This document shows, one piece after another, positions 51 through 18,197 of a stretch of 36,274 nucleotides of DNA. Numbering within the stretch: the stretch's first letter is position 1; each line of letters starts with the position of its first letter. Source of the DNA: Sulfurimonas sp. GTDB lineage: Bacteria; Campylobacterota; Campylobacteria; Campylobacterales; Sulfurimonadaceae. The position numbers and the translations under genes are program-made. The stretch lies in the NCBI GenBank assembly GCA_027056465.1, contig JALUKS010000199.1:12071-48344 (forward strand). The letters are read 5' to 3'. The notes beneath the pieces are model-generated. The model saw nothing but the letters and a program-made list of their open reading frames with translations. It had not been told where the DNA came from and did not search any database.

Positions 51-1346
51 CTACTCTCCAAACTTACTAATATCCATCTGTTTTAAAATGGCTATTAAAA
101 CATCCACAACAATACTATTGCCTGCTTGCCTATACATTTGAGTATCACTAACAACTTGCTTAAAACCATCTCCAAAACCCATCAATCTCAAACATTCAGT
201 TGGTGTTAGCTTTCTAATCCTACCTTTGTTGTGAGTAACATAATTATCAACTCCAGCTCTGTGCATTTTATGCATTGATTGTAGCAGAGGTCTTGCTACT
301 TTTAAATCTGTTTCAGTTGAAGTTTTAAAATTTTTTGTTCCACCAGCCAATACATAAGTTTTTATTTTTTCAGAAAGATAATATTTTTCTTCTACTTCTT
401 TGATGTCAAAAACAAATTCATTAAATTCTTGTTTACTTTTTTGTTCATATATAAAATCCCCATGCCAATTAAATTGTTGATTTGCTTTTTGACAAAGAGC
501 TATATCTCCATTAATTTGCGTGTATCTTTTTTTTCTATTTTTTGAACTTGTTACAAATTTTACACCTTTTTCTTTGAGATAATACTTACTATCTATATAA
601 TCTTCTAAAAAATCTTGCATAGTGTGTTGTAATTCTATTGGTTCAGGAAAATCAAAATTTATTGAATGGTCTAAAAAACCGACAACAAATATCCTTTCTC
701 TATGTTGTGCCATACCGTAGTTTTTTGCATTTAAAATTTTATGTGAATATTTATAGCCAAGCTCATCAAATGTCGCAAGAATTGTTTCAAAGGTATTACC
801 CTTGTCGTGATTTGTAAGTCCTTTAACATTTTCATAGATAAAAACTTTTGGTTGACTCTCTTTAACTACCCTCGCAAATTCATAAAATAGTGTTCCTCTT
901 GTATCGGCAAATCCTTTTCTTTTCCCAATCATAGAGAAAGATTGGCAAGGACTTCCACCAACAAGTAAGTCAATCTTGTTTTTATATTTGTTACCATCAA
1001 TGTTAATAACATCACTATACCAATTTTCTTCTGCTATATTATAGTTTGCAAAATAGCTTTGTTTTACAAACTTATCATTATCACTTGCAAAAATTATTTT
1101 AGTGGGTAATTTTAATCTTTTTAAAGCAAACTCAACTGCTCCTATTCCTGAAAACATTGTTGCAAGCCTTATCTTTGCATTTGGATTAGATAATTTTTTT
1201 TTATTCCACATAGTCTTTGAAAAATCTAATTTTTGCTCTATATTCAAGTGAAGGTAATTTGAATTTATTTCTAAAACTGCATTTGTTTGTTCATTGGGAA
1301 GTTGCTTGAATTCTAAATCTCTATTTATTATATTATTATGTAACAC
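51..1346 (-). CDS. DNA (cytosine-5-)-methyltransferase
   Basis: C5-MTase motifs: ATMFSGIGAVEFAL (I), GGSPCQSFS (IV), ENVKGL (VI), QHRERIFVVGF (VIII), RKLTPTECLRLMGFGDGF (IX), YRQAGNSIVVDVL (X). Confidence 0.95.
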   Translation of the reverse strand: MLHNNIINRDLEFKQLPNEQTNAVLEINSNYLHLNIEQKLDFSKTMWNKKKLSNPNAKIRLATMFSGIGAVEFALKRLKLPTKIIFASDNDKFVKQSYFANYNIAEENWYSDVINIDGNKYKNKIDLLVGGSPCQSFSMIGKRKGFADTRGTLFYEFARVVKESQPKVFIYENVKGLTNHDKGNTFETILATFDELGYKYSHKILNAKNYGMAQHRERIFVVGFLDHSINFDFPEPIELQHTMQDFLEDYIDSKYYLKEKGVKFVTSSKNRKKRYTQINGDIALCQKANQQFNWHGDFIYEQKSKQEFNEFVFDIKEVEEKYYLSEKIKTYVLAGGTKNFKTSTETDLKVARPLLQSMHKMHRAGVDNYVTHNKGRIRKLTPTECLRLMGFGDGFKQVVSDTQMYRQAGNSIVVDVLIAILKQMDISKFGE

Positions 1347-1546: not shown

Positions 1547-2542
1547 ATGTCAACAGTTACATCACCATATCCAGATAATTTTAATGAGTTAAAAGCAGAG
1601 GTACGTGCTGCTGGTCTTTTAGAGAGAGTTCCTATTCGTGGGAGTATTGAAATGATACTTACGCTTTTAAGTATGGCTCTTGTCTATTACATAGTTGTTC
1701 ATTGGAACTCACTTCCTACTCACTCATTATGGGCATCTGTAGGACTTGGCTTTTTTATGACTATCATTTTCACCCGTGCAGTTTTTATCTCTCATGATAT
1801 TCTACATACTCAGTACTTTAAAAACAAGTCACTCTCTTTTAAACTCTCCTACCCATTTGCAGCATTTATACTATCCAATAGCTCTTCATGGTGGGATTTT
1901 AAACACAATACAAATCATCATACTTGGTGTAATGTTCCCGAGAAAGATGAAGATATATTAGCGATGGATGGTGCATTTGCTCCAAATTATACAGGAAATA
2001 AGGCATGGCTAAGAGCTACTAAATATCTTGTCTTTTGGGGTGCGATGTTTTTTATGTATCCAGCATTTATAGCACAATCTTACAACTTCGCTATTAAACG
2101 CAAGAAGTGGGGAGAGTTAGGGCTTATGCTTATGCACTGGCCTTTAGTTTGGGGTCCTATCTTCTACTTTTTACCATTTGAGAGTGCTATAGTTGTTTAC
2201 TTAACACTTAATTTTGTTCTCTCTCCATGGTTGGCGTTTGGGTTTATTACAAATCATCTAGGGTGTGAGGTGTTTGAAAAAGAGGTTGGCGAGAAGCTCT
2301 CTTGGATGGAGTTACAGATGAGAACATCACGTTCACTCAAAGGTGGGGCATTTATTCACTGGTTCTATGGTGGGCTCAACACTCAAGTAGAGCATCACCT
2401 CTTTCCAAAAGCACCGCGTTTTAATCTTCTCAAAATACAAGAGATGACAAGAGCATTTGCTAAAAAACATGGAATGAAGTACTTTGAGACTACACCTATT
2501 GAGGCGTATGTTCAGATAAATGATGTTTTGAAGAAGTATTAA
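1547..2542 (+). CDS. fatty acid desaturase family protein
   Basis: Histidine boxes SHDILH, HNTNHH and QVEHHLFP; several hydrophobic segments. Confidence 0.9.
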   Translation: MSTVTSPYPDNFNELKAEVRAAGLLERVPIRGSIEMILTLLSMALVYYIVVHWNSLPTHSLWASVGLGFFMTIIFTRAVFISHDILHTQYFKNKSLSFKLSYPFAAFILSNSSSWWDFKHNTNHHTWCNVPEKDEDILAMDGAFAPNYTGNKAWLRATKYLVFWGAMFFMYPAFIAQSYNFAIKRKKWGELGLMLMHWPLVWGPIFYFLPFESAIVVYLTLNFVLSPWLAFGFITNHLGCEVFEKEVGEKLSWMELQMRTSRSLKGGAFIHWFYGGLNTQVEHHLFPKAPRFNLLKIQEMTRAFAKKHGMKYFETTPIEAYVQINDVLKKY

Positions 2543-2590: not shown

Positions 2591-3763
2591 TTAGATACCA
2601 TCTACACGAAGTACTTTCGTTTTTCCAACCATAAGATCAATAGTCATACCAATTCTTTTAAATACGGACTCTTGTCTATACTCTAAGTTATGCTTTTTAC
2701 AAATCTCTTTGATGATAGGTTGCATCCTCTGTTGCCCACTATGTGGCATCTCTGGAAAAATATGATGTTCTATTTGGTAGTTTAAGAAACCGTGTAAGAA
2801 GTCTATAAAATCACTTCCAGTATTATAGTTCACACTTCCCATAATTTGGCGCAAGTAGTACTCACCTTGATTTTTATGTGGTGTTGAGAACTGGTAAATA
2901 TCCTCAGCAGAGTGGTTTGGTACGATGACTAAAAATGAGTGTAGATTTGCATATATCTCAGCAATCAGAACAAATATAAGCGCAGACCCAACAGCACTCA
3001 TACCACCTAATGGGTAAAATAGAAATGGGATAACTACAAATTGAGTTACTCCATAAGGGAGGATGTACTGTAGCCATAACTCTTTACCATTTTTAGTAAA
3101 AGGGCTAAGCTCATACTCTGAAGATGGTTTTTGCTTGTTCTTAATACGCTCTTTATTTGCTAAAATACGCAGTGTATTTGGTGCATAGTAAGCGAGTTTC
3201 CAGATCATAGCGAAGATATATATGAAAGCAACTTTCGACCACATAGGGATTTTTGCTTCATGCAACCAAACCATATTTTTTTCAACATTATCAGGATCAT
3301 CATCTTCTCCTAAATGGTAGTGGTGCATAATGTTATGTTCAAAAGCCCAAGCATCAGGTTTAATCCAGTCTAACCAATCAATCCATCTTCTGTTTCCAGC
3401 CGCAAACCCTTTCTTTGTATATCTAAAAGGGATATTTGGCACTTTATCGTAATCACCGTGTAAAATAGGGTGTGTAACATTTGCCCATCTTGCAACATTT
3501 CCAATGCCTATTGCAACTGAACCTAGTAATCCAAGCTCCCAAAAAAGAACCGATGAAAAATCTGCCATCGCATTATCTAGAAAAATGACTAGAACAAGTA
3601 AAGCAAAACCACCAAAGGTAAAGTACCTTCCCCATCTCTCCATCTTTAAAAGATGGTCAAAATCCTCCTGTGTTCTTCCCGTTATAGTCTCTTTTATCGC
3701 ATCTATATCTTTTTGAAGCTGAGCTTGATCTATATCTTTATAATCAGCATATTGATGTGCCAT
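2591..3763 (-). CDS. fatty acid desaturase family protein
   Basis: HNIMHH and QIEHHIFP histidine boxes; start at MAHQYADY preferred over the longer ORF (3796) because GGAGAAG precedes it. Confidence 0.88.
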   Translation of the reverse strand: MAHQYADYKDIDQAQLQKDIDAIKETITGRTQEDFDHLLKMERWGRYFTFGGFALLVLVIFLDNAMADFSSVLFWELGLLGSVAIGIGNVARWANVTHPILHGDYDKVPNIPFRYTKKGFAAGNRRWIDWLDWIKPDAWAFEHNIMHHYHLGEDDDPDNVEKNMVWLHEAKIPMWSKVAFIYIFAMIWKLAYYAPNTLRILANKERIKNKQKPSSEYELSPFTKNGKELWLQYILPYGVTQFVVIPFLFYPLGGMSAVGSALIFVLIAEIYANLHSFLVIVPNHSAEDIYQFSTPHKNQGEYYLRQIMGSVNYNTGSDFIDFLHGFLNYQIEHHIFPEMPHSGQQRMQPIIKEICKKHNLEYRQESVFKRIGMTIDLMVGKTKVLRVDGI

Positions 3764-3900
3764 ATCTTCTCCTTTTCTTATATTTAATATAAGCAATTAT
3801 ATAGAAGAAAGCTTAAAATAAGTGCGTATTGAGAGTGAGTTAATAGAATATAAATCTCTATTTAGCTAAAATAGCATTAATTATAATATATGGAGATTTT

Positions 3901-4984: not shown

Positions 4985-6073
4985 ATGGCATCAGATATGA
5001 ATGATTATTTTAACAAAAAGAAGAGCGAAGGTGGAGCGAAAAAATCTACTGGTGGCTCAGGTGGTGGAGGTCCAAAAGGACCTCAAATGCCAGAAATGCC
5101 AAATCTAAATTTTGGTGGAGGAAAAGCAGCACTCTCTTACCTTATAATAGCAGTAATTGTACTCCTTATACTCGCAAAACCTTTTACAGTTATTCAAGAG
5201 GGTGAACGTGGAATTTTAAGTACAAATGGTAGATATCAAGATCAACCACTTTTACCAGGGCTACACTTTATCATTCCTGTGATTCAAAAAGTCTATGTAG
5301 TAGATACAAAAGTACGTATCATAAACTATGCAGCACACATTGAAGCGACTAACCGTACGTCGGGAATTGTAACAAAAAGAGCAGTAACAGTTCTTGATAA
5401 ACGCGGACTTCCCGTAAGTATTGAATTGACAGTGCAGTATAGGCTCAATGCAAAGTTTGCAGCAAAAACTATCTCGAATTGGGGCTTTAGTTGGGAAAAT
5501 AAGATTATTAATCCTGTTGTTCGTGATGTAGTTCGTAATGTTGTTGGAAAGTATGATGCAGAACTTCTTCCAATGAAACGCGATATTATTGCTACTGAGA
5601 TTGAAGAGGGACTTCGTAAAAATATTGCAAGTCTGAAAAACTCTCCAGCAATTCTACAGTCTGTACAACTCCGTGACATCATCTTGCCACAAAAAGTAAA
5701 AGACCAGATAGAGCGTGTACAGATAGCAAAACAAGAGGTACAAAAAGCACAACAAGACGTACAGCGTGCAAAACAAGAGGCACTTAAAAAAGCTGCTCAA
5801 GCACAAGGTGTCGCGCAACAAGCACGTATTGAAGCTAAGGGTCATGCAGATGCTATTACAATTCAAGCAGATGCGCAAGCTAAAGCAAACCTCTTAATCT
5901 CTAAATCTTTAACGCCTAAGCTTTTACAGTTAGAGCAGATAAAAGTACAAGGGAAATTTAATGACGCTCTTCGTGTAAACAAAGATGCTAAAATCTTCTT
6001 AACTCCTGGTGGTTCAACACCAAATATCTGGGTAGATACAAAAGATGCACAAAAAAGAACGACGGCTAAATAG
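4985..6073 (+). CDS. SPFH/prohibitin-family (HflC-like) membrane protein
   Basis: Gly-rich N-terminus, one TM helix, VIQEGERGILSTNGRYQDQPLLPGLHFIIPVIQKVYVVDTKV, then a coiled-coil Lys/Gln/Ala-rich segment. Confidence 0.88.
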   Translation: MASDMNDYFNKKKSEGGAKKSTGGSGGGGPKGPQMPEMPNLNFGGGKAALSYLIIAVIVLLILAKPFTVIQEGERGILSTNGRYQDQPLLPGLHFIIPVIQKVYVVDTKVRIINYAAHIEATNRTSGIVTKRAVTVLDKRGLPVSIELTVQYRLNAKFAAKTISNWGFSWENKIINPVVRDVVRNVVGKYDAELLPMKRDIIATEIEEGLRKNIASLKNSPAILQSVQLRDIILPQKVKDQIERVQIAKQEVQKAQQDVQRAKQEALKKAAQAQGVAQQARIEAKGHADAITIQADAQAKANLLISKSLTPKLLQLEQIKVQGKFNDALRVNKDAKIFLTPGGSTPNIWVDTKDAQKRTTAK

Positions 6074-6756
6074 TGATGCAAAAAACATTAAATAGAGTCG
6101 ATTGGGAGAAGTCAGAACTTCTTCCTGTAATAGTTCAAGAAGTTGGCACAAATGAAGTGCTTATGATGGCATATATGAACCGTGAAGCATTAGAACTTTC
6201 ACTTAGCACAAAAATTGCACACTACTTTTCGCGTTCGAGACAGCGTATCTGGAAAAAGGGAGAGTCGAGTGGTCATACTCAGACTATCCACTCTTTTAAC
6301 ATTGATTGTGATAATGATACACTGCTTATAAAAGTGACGCAAAAGGGTGTAGCTTGCCATACTGGTCGTAAGTCTTGTTTCTTTACAGAGCTAGAGTCAG
6401 GCGAGATAAATTCTGAAGTAGAAGTCGATACTTCCGTTGCTTATGGCGTTATAGATACACTCTATCATACCATCCAAGAGCGAAAAAACGCAGACCCTGA
6501 GACTTCATGGACAGCGAAACTTCTCTCTAAAGGTGACAACACTATCCTTAAAAAAGTGGTTGAAGAAGCTGGTGAGTACTGTTTCGCTCACAAAGATAAT
6601 GATGAGCCAGAGATGATCTATGAGGCAGCAGACTTAACATACCATATGTTGGTGGCGTTAGCCTCTAAAAATATCTCTCCTGATCGTATCAAACAGGAGC
6701 TTGCTCGTAGATTTGACATGAGTGGTATCGCTGAGAAAAACGCAAGAGAGAAGTAG
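6073..6756 (+). CDS. hisIE: bifunctional phosphoribosyl-AMP cyclohydrolase / phosphoribosyl-ATP pyrophosphatase
   Basis: HisI-like SRQRIWKKGESSGHTQ and ACHTGRKSCFF, then HisE-like KLLSKGDNTILKKVVEEAGE; GTG 6073 or ATG 6076 start. Confidence 0.93.
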   Translation: MMQKTLNRVDWEKSELLPVIVQEVGTNEVLMMAYMNREALELSLSTKIAHYFSRSRQRIWKKGESSGHTQTIHSFNIDCDNDTLLIKVTQKGVACHTGRKSCFFTELESGEINSEVEVDTSVAYGVIDTLYHTIQERKNADPETSWTAKLLSKGDNTILKKVVEEAGEYCFAHKDNDEPEMIYEAADLTYHMLVALASKNISPDRIKQELARRFDMSGIAEKNAREK

Positions 6757-7269
6757 TTGAAAGAAAAAATCACTGCATTTATTGATGGGCTTATTCCTTA
6801 TGACTATGCTCTCTTTGGTGCTGTTTTTTTACTTTTTATCCTATTTATCATTATAGCTCTTATGCTTCGCCGTAAAGTTATTTTTTCTCTTTTTTTTATA
6901 CTTCTCGCATTTACTACACTTTTAGCAGGACCAACTCTTGGATATATCAAACTCCATGAGTATCTCTTCAAAAATAGTTTAACATTAACTTCTCAAAAAC
7001 GCTTACACTTTAGTGAGGCTGTTATAGTTTATGGAACACTTACAAATGAATCTAAGAGCTACTTTAAAGAGTGTAGAATAACTGCTAATGCTTATGCTGT
7101 TACTTCAAATAAGTATAAAAATTATCTAAAAAAATTAAAACCATTTCAAAAGATGTCGATAGTTGAGAAAGGTATAGCAGTATCGGAGAGTCGAAATTTC
7201 AAGATTATTGTAGAACCTTTTACATATAGCAGAGATTATAATATCTCTTTAGGAGCAGACTGTAAATGA
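6757..7269 (+). CDS. DUF2393-like membrane protein
   Basis: TTG start directly after the hisIE stop; two N-terminal TM segments; resembles the following ORF. Confidence 0.6.
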   Translation: MKEKITAFIDGLIPYDYALFGAVFLLFILFIIIALMLRRKVIFSLFFILLAFTTLLAGPTLGYIKLHEYLFKNSLTLTSQKRLHFSEAVIVYGTLTNESKSYFKECRITANAYAVTSNKYKNYLKKLKPFQKMSIVEKGIAVSESRNFKIIVEPFTYSRDYNISLGADCK

Positions 7270-7833: not shown

Positions 7834-8793
7834 TTAGTACTTTAAGCCAACTTTTTTCAAAGCTTTGTTGATGTTTCTTATCTGCATATTTTTATCTCTA
7901 CACCACTGAGGTGCTAGGAGTGCATCATCATCCAAACCAGCAGTTATACGTTGGACATGGATATGTTTAGGTTTCATCTCTAAGGACTTTACAAGTACTT
8001 CCAAGTAACTCTCTTCACTTATGGGTATAAACTCACCACGCATAAACTCATTTGCTAATGCTGTACGTTTGACTACATAGAGAGGATGGTACTTCACAGA
8101 GTCAATTCCCCACTCATATGCAGCACGAGAGGTCGCAAGCATCATCTCTTGAGTCTCATCATAGAGACCAAAGATAAGATGTCCACAGACATTGACTCCC
8201 GCTTTTTTTGACTTTATGATCCACTCTTTGACATTGGCACTATCATGACCACGGTTAATCTTTTCTAACGTCTCATCGTACACAGACTGTATACCAAACT
8301 CAAGCCAAATCTCTGACTCTTTTGCAAGCTCTGCTAGATACTCTAAAGTCTCTTCAGTAATACTATCTGAACGTGTACCGATGCTAAGTCCTACTACATT
8401 AGGAAAGGAGAGTGCTTTTTCATAAAGAGCTTTGAGTGTTGCAAAGGGTGCATAGGTATTTGTAAAAGATTGAAAATAGACTATAAATTTCTCAGCTCCA
8501 TACTCTTTAGCTTGGCGTTTAGAGATAGCCTCAAACTGCTGTTCAAGCTGGAGAAGTTGTTTCTCTAAAAAAGGGTTCTCTTCTGAGTCGAGATTTAAGT
8601 GAAAACCTTTTAGCTCTTTTATCTCGTCAGTACTGGCAGAAAAAGAGTCATTTTCACAAAAGGTACAACCACCTTTTGCGACTGTTCCATCTATATTTGG
8701 GCAGGTAAAGCCAGAGATATTTATGCCAACTTTATAGACCTTGCACCCAAACTTCTCTTTGAGGTAACCACCGTATGTGTATATCTGTTCCAT
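7834..8793 (-). CDS. TIGR01212-type radical SAM protein
   Basis: CPNIDGTVAKGGCTFCEN cysteine motif; VYFQSFTNTYAPFATLKALYEKAL and LEFGIQSVYDETLEKINRGHD segments. Confidence 0.87.
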   Translation of the reverse strand: MEQIYTYGGYLKEKFGCKVYKVGINISGFTCPNIDGTVAKGGCTFCENDSFSASTDEIKELKGFHLNLDSEENPFLEKQLLQLEQQFEAISKRQAKEYGAEKFIVYFQSFTNTYAPFATLKALYEKALSFPNVVGLSIGTRSDSITEETLEYLAELAKESEIWLEFGIQSVYDETLEKINRGHDSANVKEWIIKSKKAGVNVCGHLIFGLYDETQEMMLATSRAAYEWGIDSVKYHPLYVVKRTALANEFMRGEFIPISEESYLEVLVKSLEMKPKHIHVQRITAGLDDDALLAPQWCRDKNMQIRNINKALKKVGLKY

Positions 8794-10157
8794 TAAACGA
8801 TATACTTACCTGTAAAACAAGCAGTACAGTATTTATCTTCATCTGCTGTAGATTTTACACTTCTAAGGAGTGCAGCCTCATCTAAGTAAGCAAGTGAATC
8901 AGCTTCGATATAGTCACAAATCTCTTGATTAGACATCTTAGACGCGATAAGACTCTCTTTGTCTGGTGTATCTACACCATAAAAACATGGGTCAGTTGTA
9001 GGAGGAGAAGAGACACGCATATGTACTTCGCTAGCTCCTGCCTCTTTGAGCATACGGATGATACGGCGAGAAGTAGTTCCACGAACGATAGAGTCATCTA
9101 CGACGATAACTTTTTTGCCTTTAATAATGTCCGTCATAGGAGAGAGTTTCATCTTCACTTTGAGGTCACGCATCTCTTGTGTCGGCTCGATGAAAGTACG
9201 TCCGATGTAGTGGTTTCTCATAATCCCCATCTCATAAGGAATGCCACTCTCTTGTGCATACCCAATAGCAGCAGGAACACCACCATCAGGAACAGGGATA
9301 ACCATATCTGCTTCTATAGGATTGATTTTAGCAAGCTCTTTTCCCATATCTTTTCGCGTTTGATAGACAGACTGCCCAAATACATTGGAATCAGGTCGTG
9401 CAAAGTAAACATACTCAAAGATACAGTGCTTAGGAGTAACAGACTCTAAAACTTGCATACTGATAGGCTCTTTTCCCTCTTCAAATATAAGAAGTTCCCC
9501 TGGTTTCACATCACGAATAAAAGTAGCACCCACAAGATCAAATGCACAAGTCTCACTCGCAACGATATAACCACCATTAGGAAGTTTTCCAAGACTTAAA
9601 GGGCGAAAACCAAATCTATCTCGCATAGCAAACATCTTTGAACGGCTTAAAAATACTAAAGAAAAAGCACCCTCAATTCTCTGAACTGCATCGATAATTC
9701 TCTCTAAAAGTTTATCTTTAGAACTTTTAGCGATAAGGTGAATAAGATTTTCAGTATCCATAAATGTCTGAAAAATCGCACCTTTTTCAATGAGCTTGTT
9801 ACGGACTTCATCAGCGTTTGTGAGATTACCATTGTGAACAATAGCCATCTCACCGAGGTCATAACGAGCAAACACTGGTTGTGCATCGAGAATAGAGTCA
9901 TCCCCAGCAGTTGAGTAACGAGTATGCCCAACAGCAGAAGAGCCACTCAATGTAGAGAGTTTCTTTTCATTAAACACTCTCATAACTAAACCACGATCTT
10001 TAATAGTATGCAGTTTCTTTCCATCAGAAGAGCTAATTCCAGCAGCTTCTTGACCACGGTGTTGTAGTGCATGGAGAGAGAAGTAAGCTAATTTAGAAGC
10101 CTCTTCGTGACCAAATATCCCAACAACAGCACACTTTTCATTTATATCTTCGCGCAA
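8793..10157 (-). CDS. purF: amidophosphoribosyltransferase
   Basis: Short propeptide then CAVVGIFGH nucleophile; LHALQHRGQEAAGI, GHTRYSTAG, VVDDSIVRGTTSRRIIRMLKEAGA PRTase motif. Confidence 0.97.
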   Translation of the reverse strand: MREDINEKCAVVGIFGHEEASKLAYFSLHALQHRGQEAAGISSSDGKKLHTIKDRGLVMRVFNEKKLSTLSGSSAVGHTRYSTAGDDSILDAQPVFARYDLGEMAIVHNGNLTNADEVRNKLIEKGAIFQTFMDTENLIHLIAKSSKDKLLERIIDAVQRIEGAFSLVFLSRSKMFAMRDRFGFRPLSLGKLPNGGYIVASETCAFDLVGATFIRDVKPGELLIFEEGKEPISMQVLESVTPKHCIFEYVYFARPDSNVFGQSVYQTRKDMGKELAKINPIEADMVIPVPDGGVPAAIGYAQESGIPYEMGIMRNHYIGRTFIEPTQEMRDLKVKMKLSPMTDIIKGKKVIVVDDSIVRGTTSRRIIRMLKEAGASEVHMRVSSPPTTDPCFYGVDTPDKESLIASKMSNQEICDYIEADSLAYLDEAALLRSVKSTADEDKYCTACFTGKYIV

Positions 10158-16150: not shown

Positions 16151-16240
16151 AAAGTGAAGATCCTTGTTGTGATAGTAAAAAATATTTTGTGCAATTATAG
16201 CGACTAAATGTTATAATACATCTAATACAATGGAGAAGTT

Positions 16241-18160
16241 ATGAATAGAGATATAAAAAGTTTAACGGCGAATGAGATACTAGATTATGTGTTTACCTAT
16301 TTGACAGAAGTCTCTTCTCTCACAGACTATGATGAGATACTAGTCGTTCTCGCAAAAATGGGACGCTCGCTTACAAGTGCAGATAGATGTAGTATCTGGG
16401 TGGTTTCAGAGGATAAAAAAACTCTCTGGACAAAGGTAGCTCAAGGAGTAGGTCGCTTAGAAATACCTGTAGAATCAGGAATAGTAGGTGCAGCAATTAA
16501 GAATGGACAACGTGAAATTATTTCTGATGCCTATCTTGATGAGCGTTTTAATAAAGAGGTAGATTCTCAAACTGGCTATCGAACAAAAAGCATGATGGTT
16601 ATTCCTATGTATGATTATAGTGAAAATATAGTAGGTGCTTTTCAAGTAGTAAATCATCATGGAGAACATAATGAGTTTGAAGAAAGAGATTTAGAGCGTC
16701 TTACATTGGCTAGTACTTATGCAGCTGAAACACTTGTCTCTGCAAAACTAGCTATAGAAATAACAGAGACACAAAAAGAGGTAGTCTTTACAATGGGTTC
16801 TATTGCTGAGAGTAGATCAAAAGAGACAGGAAATCATGTCAAACGTGTTGCCGAGTACTCAAAGATTTTAGCACTAGCCTATGGACTTGATGAAGAGGAA
16901 TCAGAACTTCTTAAACAAGCAAGTCCAATGCATGATATAGGTAAAGTAGCAATTTCAGATAGTATTTTAAATAAACCTGGTCGTTTTGATGAGAATGAGC
17001 GTTTTATTATGAACACTCATGCTGAACTTGGATATAAGATGATAAAAGACTCTAATCGTCCACTCCTAAAAGCAGCTTCTATTGTAGCTTACGAGCATCA
17101 TGAAAAATGGAATGGTACAGGATATCCACGGAAGCTAAAAGGCAAAGAAATCCATATCTATGGTCGTATTACAGCTTTAGCAGATGTTTTTGATGCATTG
17201 GGAAGTGATAGGGTATATAAAAAGGCTTGGAGTAATGAAAGAATTTTTTCTTTGTTACATGAAGAGAGAGGAGAACATTTTGATCCACATCTCGTAGATA
17301 TCTTTTTTGAGAATTTAGAAAAAATAGAAGCGGTCCGTGATAGTTTTAATGATAGATATGAGGACCAAACAGCTCTTAGTGAACAAAAAGAGATAAAAAT
17401 CCTAGGGGCTTATGGTACAAAATCAAAAGGCTATGGAACAAGTGCTTTCTATGTGAATAAAAAAAATGTAATTGATGCAGGCAATCTACTTGAACCGCTT
17501 AATATAGAAAGTATAGATATAGAAAATATCTGGATGACACATTCACATCTTGACCATATTATAGATATTGCATATATATTAGATAACTATTTCAACTTAC
17601 GTAAAAAATCTCTTAACATTATAGGATTACCTGAAACCATACAAGCTATAAAGGAGAATTTTTTAAATAATACAATATGGCCAGACTTTAGTGTTATACC
17701 ATTAACACTCTCAGATGAAATGGCTGTAACATATACAGAGATAGAAATAGATAAAGAGTATAGTATAGGAAAGCAGGAGACAATCAAGGCATTTTATACA
17801 GATCATACGGTTGCAAGTTGTGGTTATGTCTATACAAAAGAGAATAAGAGTGTTCTTATAACAGCGGATACCTATTCACTTGATAATGCAATAAATGAGA
17901 TAAATAGTAATGATAAAATATCTAGTGTAGTAATAGAATGTTCTTTTCCTAGTGAGTTTGAAAATTTAGCAATAACTTCTAAACATCTGACACCAAAAAT
18001 ATTGTTTAAGATGTTAGAAGATGTCAAAAGAGAGGGTGTGCAACTTTATATCAATCATATTAAACCATCTTACTTTAAAAGAATCAGTGATGAGATAGAG
18101 GAATATAGGGGAAAATGGGAGCCAAAAATACTAAAAGATGGAAATTTCATATATTTTTAG
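16241..18160 (+). CDS. GAF-HD-GYP-class II cyclic-nucleotide phosphodiesterase (PDEase_II/metallo-beta-lactamase fold) fusion
   Basis: GAF-like N-terminus (ADRCSIWVVSEDKKTLWTKVA); HD-GYP motifs MHDIGKVAI, HHEKWNGTGYP, RITALADVFDALGSDRVYKKAW; C-terminal GTSAFYVNKKNVIDAG, MTHSHLDHI, LITADTYS, VVIECSFP, KHLTPK. Confidence 0.88.
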   Translation: MNRDIKSLTANEILDYVFTYLTEVSSLTDYDEILVVLAKMGRSLTSADRCSIWVVSEDKKTLWTKVAQGVGRLEIPVESGIVGAAIKNGQREIISDAYLDERFNKEVDSQTGYRTKSMMVIPMYDYSENIVGAFQVVNHHGEHNEFEERDLERLTLASTYAAETLVSAKLAIEITETQKEVVFTMGSIAESRSKETGNHVKRVAEYSKILALAYGLDEEESELLKQASPMHDIGKVAISDSILNKPGRFDENERFIMNTHAELGYKMIKDSNRPLLKAASIVAYEHHEKWNGTGYPRKLKGKEIHIYGRITALADVFDALGSDRVYKKAWSNERIFSLLHEERGEHFDPHLVDIFFENLEKIEAVRDSFNDRYEDQTALSEQKEIKILGAYGTKSKGYGTSAFYVNKKNVIDAGNLLEPLNIESIDIENIWMTHSHLDHIIDIAYILDNYFNLRKKSLNIIGLPETIQAIKENFLNNTIWPDFSVIPLTLSDEMAVTYTEIEIDKEYSIGKQETIKAFYTDHTVASCGYVYTKENKSVLITADTYSLDNAINEINSNDKISSVVIECSFPSEFENLAITSKHLTPKILFKMLEDVKREGVQLYINHIKPSYFKRISDEIEEYRGKWEPKILKDGNFIYF

Positions 18161-18168
18161 CAAAAACC

Positions 18169-18197
18169 TTGACATTAAAAACGAAAAGGACTATAAT
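18169..18197 (+). promoter_or_regulatory. consensus sigma70-type promoter for the tRNA cluster
   Basis: TTGACA (18169-18174), 17-nt spacer, TATAAT (18192-18197), 17 nt before tRNA-Thr. Confidence 0.8.

Follow-up and report, generated by a model that had tools for sequence, protein, structure and literature searches.

A conserved Sulfurimonas protein that unites GAF, HD-GYP and class II phosphodiesterase domains and may connect cAMP with c-di-GMP

Introduction

Can one bacterial protein hold hydrolases for two different second messengers, and what would such an arrangement accomplish? The question is raised by a gene in a 36,274-nucleotide stretch of DNA (the window) from a Sulfurimonas-like member of the Campylobacterota, whose nearest relatives are Sulfurimonas MAGs (90-91% identity) and whose assembly of 1.77 Mb is 89% complete. 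An earlier note on this DNA had proposed that a 639-residue open reading frame combines GAF, HD-GYP and class II phosphodiesterase (PDE) modules, and that its product either couples two messengers or runs c-di-GMP to pGpG and on to further breakdown. As a rule, cAMP and c-di-GMP signalling are connected by transcription factors or by binding proteins that they have in common. A single protein with hydrolases for the two would join them physically and directly.

The gene and its domains

The frame begins with an ATG at 16241 and runs with zero internal stops to a stop codon at 18158-18160 (Table 1). It is not a chance frame, since about 29 other loci, nearly all of them from Sulfurimonas, carry the identical fused architecture, and dN/dS across the three domains is 0.04-0.08 when the window gene is compared with its two nearest relatives. 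The 639-residue product is a real, conserved and repeatedly assembled two-PDE protein. The proposed modules are borne out by Pfam, by alignment to the solved structure 4mcw and by motifs. Matches that each exceed the curated Pfam cut-off occur for GAF (PF01590, residues 29-163, 2e-13), HD_5 (PF13487, residues 187-351, 1.9e-32) and PDEase_II (PF02112, residues 394-596, 2e-13; score 50.7 bits, cut-off 23.7). The motifs that the note quoted are present in the translation, both those of the HD-GYP domain (HDIGK at residue 231, HHEKW at 286) and those of the PDE type (HSHLDH at 434, ADTYS at 542, ECSFP at 566 and KHLTP at 581), and its estimate of residue 386 for the start of the PDE domain is within a few residues of ours. 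Linker residues 373-381 have pLDDT values below 50 in a model of the full-length protein, and the pTM of 0.47 for this model leaves the mutual arrangement of the domains open.

Table 1. Positions of the gene, its predicted domains and nearby signals in the window
Feature	Position	Strand	Evidence
TATAAT, possible -10 box of a promoter for this gene	16212..16217	+	by sequence; not picked by two-hexamer scan
GGAG, probable ribosome-binding site	16232..16235	+	by sequence
Gene for 639-residue GAF / HD-GYP / class II PDE protein	16241..18160	+	open frame, Pfam, conserved in relatives
GAF domain, cyclic-nucleotide-GAF type (residues 15-170)	16283..16750	+	Pfam, PDB matches
HD-GYP domain (residues 172-371)	16754..17353	+	Pfam, alignment to 4mcw
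Linker (residues 372-383)	17354..17389	+	low model confidence
Class II PDE domain, metallo-beta-lactamase fold (residues 384-639)	17390..18157	+	Pfam, profile, model, Foldseek
HSHLDH metal-binding motif (residues 434-439)	17540..17557	+	conservation in 91 homologues

The gene is flanked by a divergent yaaA across a gap of 90 bp and, on its other side, by a tRNA-tuf-nusG block. The TATAAT within this gap is only a suggestion for the -10 box of the fused gene. A perfect TTGACA-17-TATAAT match to a sigma-70 promoter (18169-18197) lies just 3' of the stop codon and before the tRNA block, and presumably serves the tRNAs. Elsewhere in the window are a C-5 cytosine DNA methyltransferase gene (51-1346, minus strand) and two genes facing each other that look desaturase-like by eye only (1547-2542, plus strand; 2591-3796, minus strand).

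The GAF and HD-GYP half

Over its whole length, the segment of residues 16-371 can be aligned to the GAF-HD-GYP protein of structure 4mcw (3.4e-97), and 150 of 356 columns (42%) are identical. We take this structure to be PmGH of Persephonella marina, for which 4mdz and 4me4 are presumably further structures. The residues that we take to be its metal ligands have the same counterparts in the alignment (E195, H199, H231, D232, H260, H286, H287 and D315), and the HD..GK and HH...GYP motifs are both present. The genome that contains the window encodes 24 GGDEF domains, and c-di-GMP is therefore very likely made in this organism.

The GAF domain on its own matches 17 distinct PDB sequences, namely 4mcw and 16 that are labelled nucleotide cyclases or cyclic-nucleotide phosphodiesterases, among them the CyaB1-type 1ykd, PDE2A, PDE5, PDE6 and PDE10. 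Its NKFDE motif is partial: it keeps N138, F147 and D151 and has His at the K position and Leu at the E position. These matches suggest that the GAF ligand is likely a cyclic nucleotide.

Identity of the C-terminal domain

By Pfam, profile-versus-PDB comparison and Foldseek, the C-terminal domain is assigned to the class II cyclic-nucleotide PDEs; the note had allowed for a non-PDE metallo-beta-lactamase family such as RNase Z, and these methods favour the PDE. When a profile of 18 homologues is searched against all PDB chains, yeast PDE1 is the top match (7e-14) and the best RNase Z scores 1.8e-5. AlphaFold2 models this domain with high confidence (pLDDT 96, pTM 0.92), and Foldseek places the model in a group that contains YhfI, RNase Z, PDE1 and Apyc1, with the query TM-score for PDE1 (0.80) the highest among the matches listed. 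The metal site is complete (H434, H436, D438, H439, H522, D543, H582 and H606). In a set of 91 homologous domains, some rows of which are near or exact copies, H434, H436, H439, H522 and H582 are kept in all 91, D543 and H606 in 90, and D438 in 88, with Glu in the remaining three.

Two other identities were considered and rejected. The RNase Z equivalog model gives 51.1 bits against a cut-off of 292.95, and the PDB profile result given above also argues against this enzyme. RNase Z has a flexible arm that separates its motif III His from the bridging Asp; with H522 and D543 only 21 residues apart, there is no room for such an arm. All five tRNAs of the window have an encoded CCA, which was also counted against an RNase Z role. 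For an anti-phage, Apyc1-like function, PADLOC matches are limited to weak Cas3-HD hits on the HD domain; the gene context is housekeeping, and there is no plasmid match.

Relatives and the neighbouring cyclase

We annotated by script 105 PDE-domain loci from Campylobacterota genomes, chosen among the top matches and with an eye to variety; the fractions therefore describe this sample and not the phylum. The PDE domain is fused to HD-GYP in 73 of them, with the PDE first in 43 and the HD-GYP first, as in the window, in 30, and both motif blocks are kept in 72 of the 73 fusions. A separate HD-GYP gene occurs nearby on the same strand in 18 of the 105 loci, and 14 have a PDE domain without any HD-GYP nearby. 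In L131, L132, L133, L148 and L149 the split form is a row of three consecutive genes, for cyclase, GAF-HD-GYP and PDE.

A class III cyclase gene lies within 3.5 kb of the PDE domain in 65 of the 105 loci and is of the CHASE2 type where checked. In many Sulfurimonas it is the gene directly upstream of the fused gene; at L009 and L152 this upstream gene encodes a class III cyclase with CHASE2, and the cluster also has a FecR gene on the upstream side. In 58 of 58 cyclase domains (copies included), the two aspartates for metal, the Asn and Arg of the transition state and a Lys/Thr pair are present. Such a Lys/Thr pair is typical of class IIIb adenylate cyclases, and the nearest solved relatives of the neighbouring cyclase are adenylate cyclases.

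The PDE domain and class III cyclase co-occur strongly across 397 Campylobacterota genomes: 74 have both and 302 neither, with the domain alone in 18 and the cyclase alone in 3. We rest this association on its spread over genera, with domain and cyclase within 6 kb of each other in 23 of 32, because a Fisher p-value ignores shared ancestry. Not every member of the PDE family needs cAMP, since 18 of the 92 PDE-bearing Campylobacterota genomes, as well as a Pseudomonadota branch with the gene in a trp operon, are without the cyclase.

Several loci depart from these arrangements. In five Sulfurimonas loci (L138-L140, L142 and L143) the PDE domain stands alone at the same locus and its HD-GYP and cyclase neighbours are lost, the opposite of the loss in the lineage of the window. 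A tandem second PDE paralogue in which HxHxEH replaces HxHxDH occurs in L027 (9070-9837), L160 (5941-6714) and L166 (6540-7319), the last with two more ligand positions changed, and is possibly a regulatory or decaying copy. L134 has a broken copy (8011-10057) with the cyclase split over two frames, L141 a shortened HD-GYP with a shortened PDE (5033-6946), and L053 a GAF-HD-GYP gene whose start is out of frame (5001-6123).

Origin of the fusions and spread beyond the Campylobacterota

In a tree of the PDE domain, the HD-first fusions fall in one group (support 100/100) that also contains split and solitary forms, and the PDE-first fusions lie outside it. The main PDE-first group occupies a very long, strongly supported branch in the HD-GYP tree and carries an insertion of about 110 residues in this domain, and the HD-GYP of one further PDE-first protein (L162) is close to Paenibacillus-type proteins. 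Because the HD-first, PDE-first and L162 proteins have different positions in the trees, at least two separate fusions in opposite orders are indicated, and probably more than two, with the exact number made unsafe by long branches. In L152-L156, L159, L164 and L168 the insertion separates the HDIGK part of the domain from the GYP part, and the same variant is found as a separate gene beside cyclase and PDE in the Pseudomonadota loci L237 and L244.

No PDE domain was found in 250 Bacillota genomes. It is present in 76 of 399 Pseudomonadota genomes, where it is unfused as judged by frame length; a lone long frame (G872, 647 residues) was rejected as a fusion, as the ORF has 339 residues and no HD-GYP. 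The L237 cluster of this phylum comprises FHA, cyclase, PDE, cNMP-binding, T2SSE (PilB-like) and GAF-HD-GYP genes. Another Pseudomonadota branch has an operon of trpF, trpB-like, trpA, PDE, accD-like and Mur-ligase-type (folC-like) genes and no cyclase. At L235 (3982-9560) the stand-alone PDE relative sits between trpA and the accD-like gene, with no cyclase, and the gene order appears similar by length in L238, L239, L240, L247, L248, L250 and L251, domains having been checked in L235 only.

The lineage of the window

The neighbouring cyclase has been lost at the locus of the window lineage. No class III cyclase and no CHASE2 domain was found in the 89% complete genome of the window, and the L002 and L007 genomes yielded no cyclase; the genome of the close relative L001 has one elsewhere. 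Among the genes of the window, L001 and L002, dN/dS for the PDE domain is 0.06-0.08, a rough estimate at dS values of 0.6 to 1.1, and these ratios indicate that the domain is under constraint in this clade that is about as strict as that on the GAF. The case for a role in cAMP turnover is thus strongest at the level of the family and weaker for the strain of the window, where the cAMP half may serve another source.

Proposed function and alternatives

We consider it reasonably probable that this protein is a dual-messenger PDE, with c-di-GMP as the substrate of the HD-GYP domain, cAMP as that of the class II PDE domain and probable gating of the protein by cAMP at the GAF. It is predicted to be cytoplasmic. 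In the ancestral cluster, cAMP would come from a CHASE2 adenylate cyclase in the membrane that takes its input from a FecR envelope protein; the GAF most likely binds cAMP and would set the activity of the HD-GYP domain, so that the fused protein would read cAMP, lower c-di-GMP and then destroy the cAMP to reset the switch. The sequences themselves show which domains are present, that the active sites are intact and the gene conserved, that relatives have an adjacent cyclase gene, that domain and cyclase occur together and that fusion happened more than once; both activities, the roles of cAMP as PDE substrate and GAF ligand, and the direction of regulation are inferred. The L237 cluster, with cyclase, PDE, cNMP-binding and GAF-HD-GYP genes, also speaks for this reading. 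Against it stand the cyclase not found in the genomes of the window, L002 and L007, the PDE-bearing genomes and trp-operon branch without one, the partial NKFDE motif and the open domain arrangement of the full-length model. With the neighbouring cyclase lost, the lineage of the window would need an alternative cAMP source or another substrate: its cAMP half could serve a cyclase missing from the assembly, cAMP from outside or a different phosphodiester.

The stronger form of this proposal, a hard-wired converter in which GAF-bound cAMP switches c-di-GMP hydrolysis, the attached PDE erases the cAMP and the two have been fused at least twice, is possible and somewhat doubtful. If it is true, then direct enzymatic coupling of two messengers is a selected feature of Campylobacterota signalling. 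The similar fusions in both orders and the usual cyclase neighbour suggest a physical link of two signalling systems, and such two-hydrolase fusions are common within their family in one phylum and have formed repeatedly. The predicted logic leads from an envelope signal through cAMP and c-di-GMP to biofilm or motility, in sulfur oxidisers that are abundant and whose signalling has received little study.

Of the two functions raised by the note, the coupling of two messengers gains support from the cyclase beside homologues, the co-occurrence and the separate fusions in both orders, and the serial breakdown of c-di-GMP finds none. Serial action, with the HD-GYP domain opening c-di-GMP and the metallo-beta-lactamase-fold domain breaking down the pGpG that results, would suit two domains in one chain and an organism that very likely makes c-di-GMP. 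We judge this scheme very improbable, because the conserved partner gene encodes a nucleotide cyclase, some PDE domains have no HD-GYP in their vicinity and one branch belongs to a trp operon, and the best match of the domain is the cAMP enzyme PDE1; moreover, several HD-GYP enzymes take c-di-GMP all the way to GMP themselves. A substrate other than cAMP (2',3'-cNMP, cCMP/cUMP, another phosphodiester or an RNA end), with the cyclase link only ancestral, is an unlikely alternative that nevertheless accommodates the RNase Z, PhnP, YhfI and Apyc1 members of the fold group, the genomes with the PDE only (that of the window included) and the Pseudomonadota trp-operon branch. The profile preference for yeast PDE1, the co-occurrence with cyclase and the low score of the RNase Z equivalog model speak for cAMP instead.

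The PDE half could also be a leftover in this strain, in which only the GAF-HD-GYP half still signals after departure of the cyclase. This would account for the lack of cyclase and CHASE2 in the genome of the window, for a clade without the neighbouring upstream cyclase and for the absence of cyclase from the L002 and L007 genomes. It is quite unlikely, however, given the constraint on the PDE domain, the other Sulfurimonas that keep the PDE and lose the HD-GYP, the cyclase elsewhere in the L001 genome and an assembly that is only 89% complete. Among these readings we favour the coupling of cAMP with c-di-GMP.

Comparison with known systems

The main text of an mBio study of 2022 (PMC9239204) describes Campylobacterota adenylate cyclases as all carrying CHASE2 and as mostly clustering with a cAMP phosphodiesterase, a FecR protein and a TPR protein; it mentions no link of the clustered phosphodiesterase to HD-GYP. 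In many relatives the homologous PDE loci lie in this cluster, and a cyclase or FecR gene is present in many of them, whereas the locus of the window is without cyclase, FecR and TPR genes. The CHASE2 cyclase/FecR/PDE cluster has thus already been published, and narrow word searches of open-licence papers found no description of the HD-GYP fusion, which we tentatively regard as undescribed before.

YhfI, RNase Z and Apyc1 have the same fold as the C-terminal domain (Foldseek E of about 1e-9 to 1e-15), but its sequence profile favours PDE1 and its gene context is one of signalling, in contrast to the phage defence or tRNA processing of that group. Yeast PDE1 (4ojv, 4ojx) shares a GLPxT...FN..IWPD stretch and HxHLDH with the domain; unlike the window protein, it is a stand-alone enzyme of 369 residues, with 18% identity in the structural alignment. 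PmGH (4mcw) has the same GAF and HD-GYP domains with the same metal ligands, and the window protein differs from it in the class II PDE domain at its C terminus.
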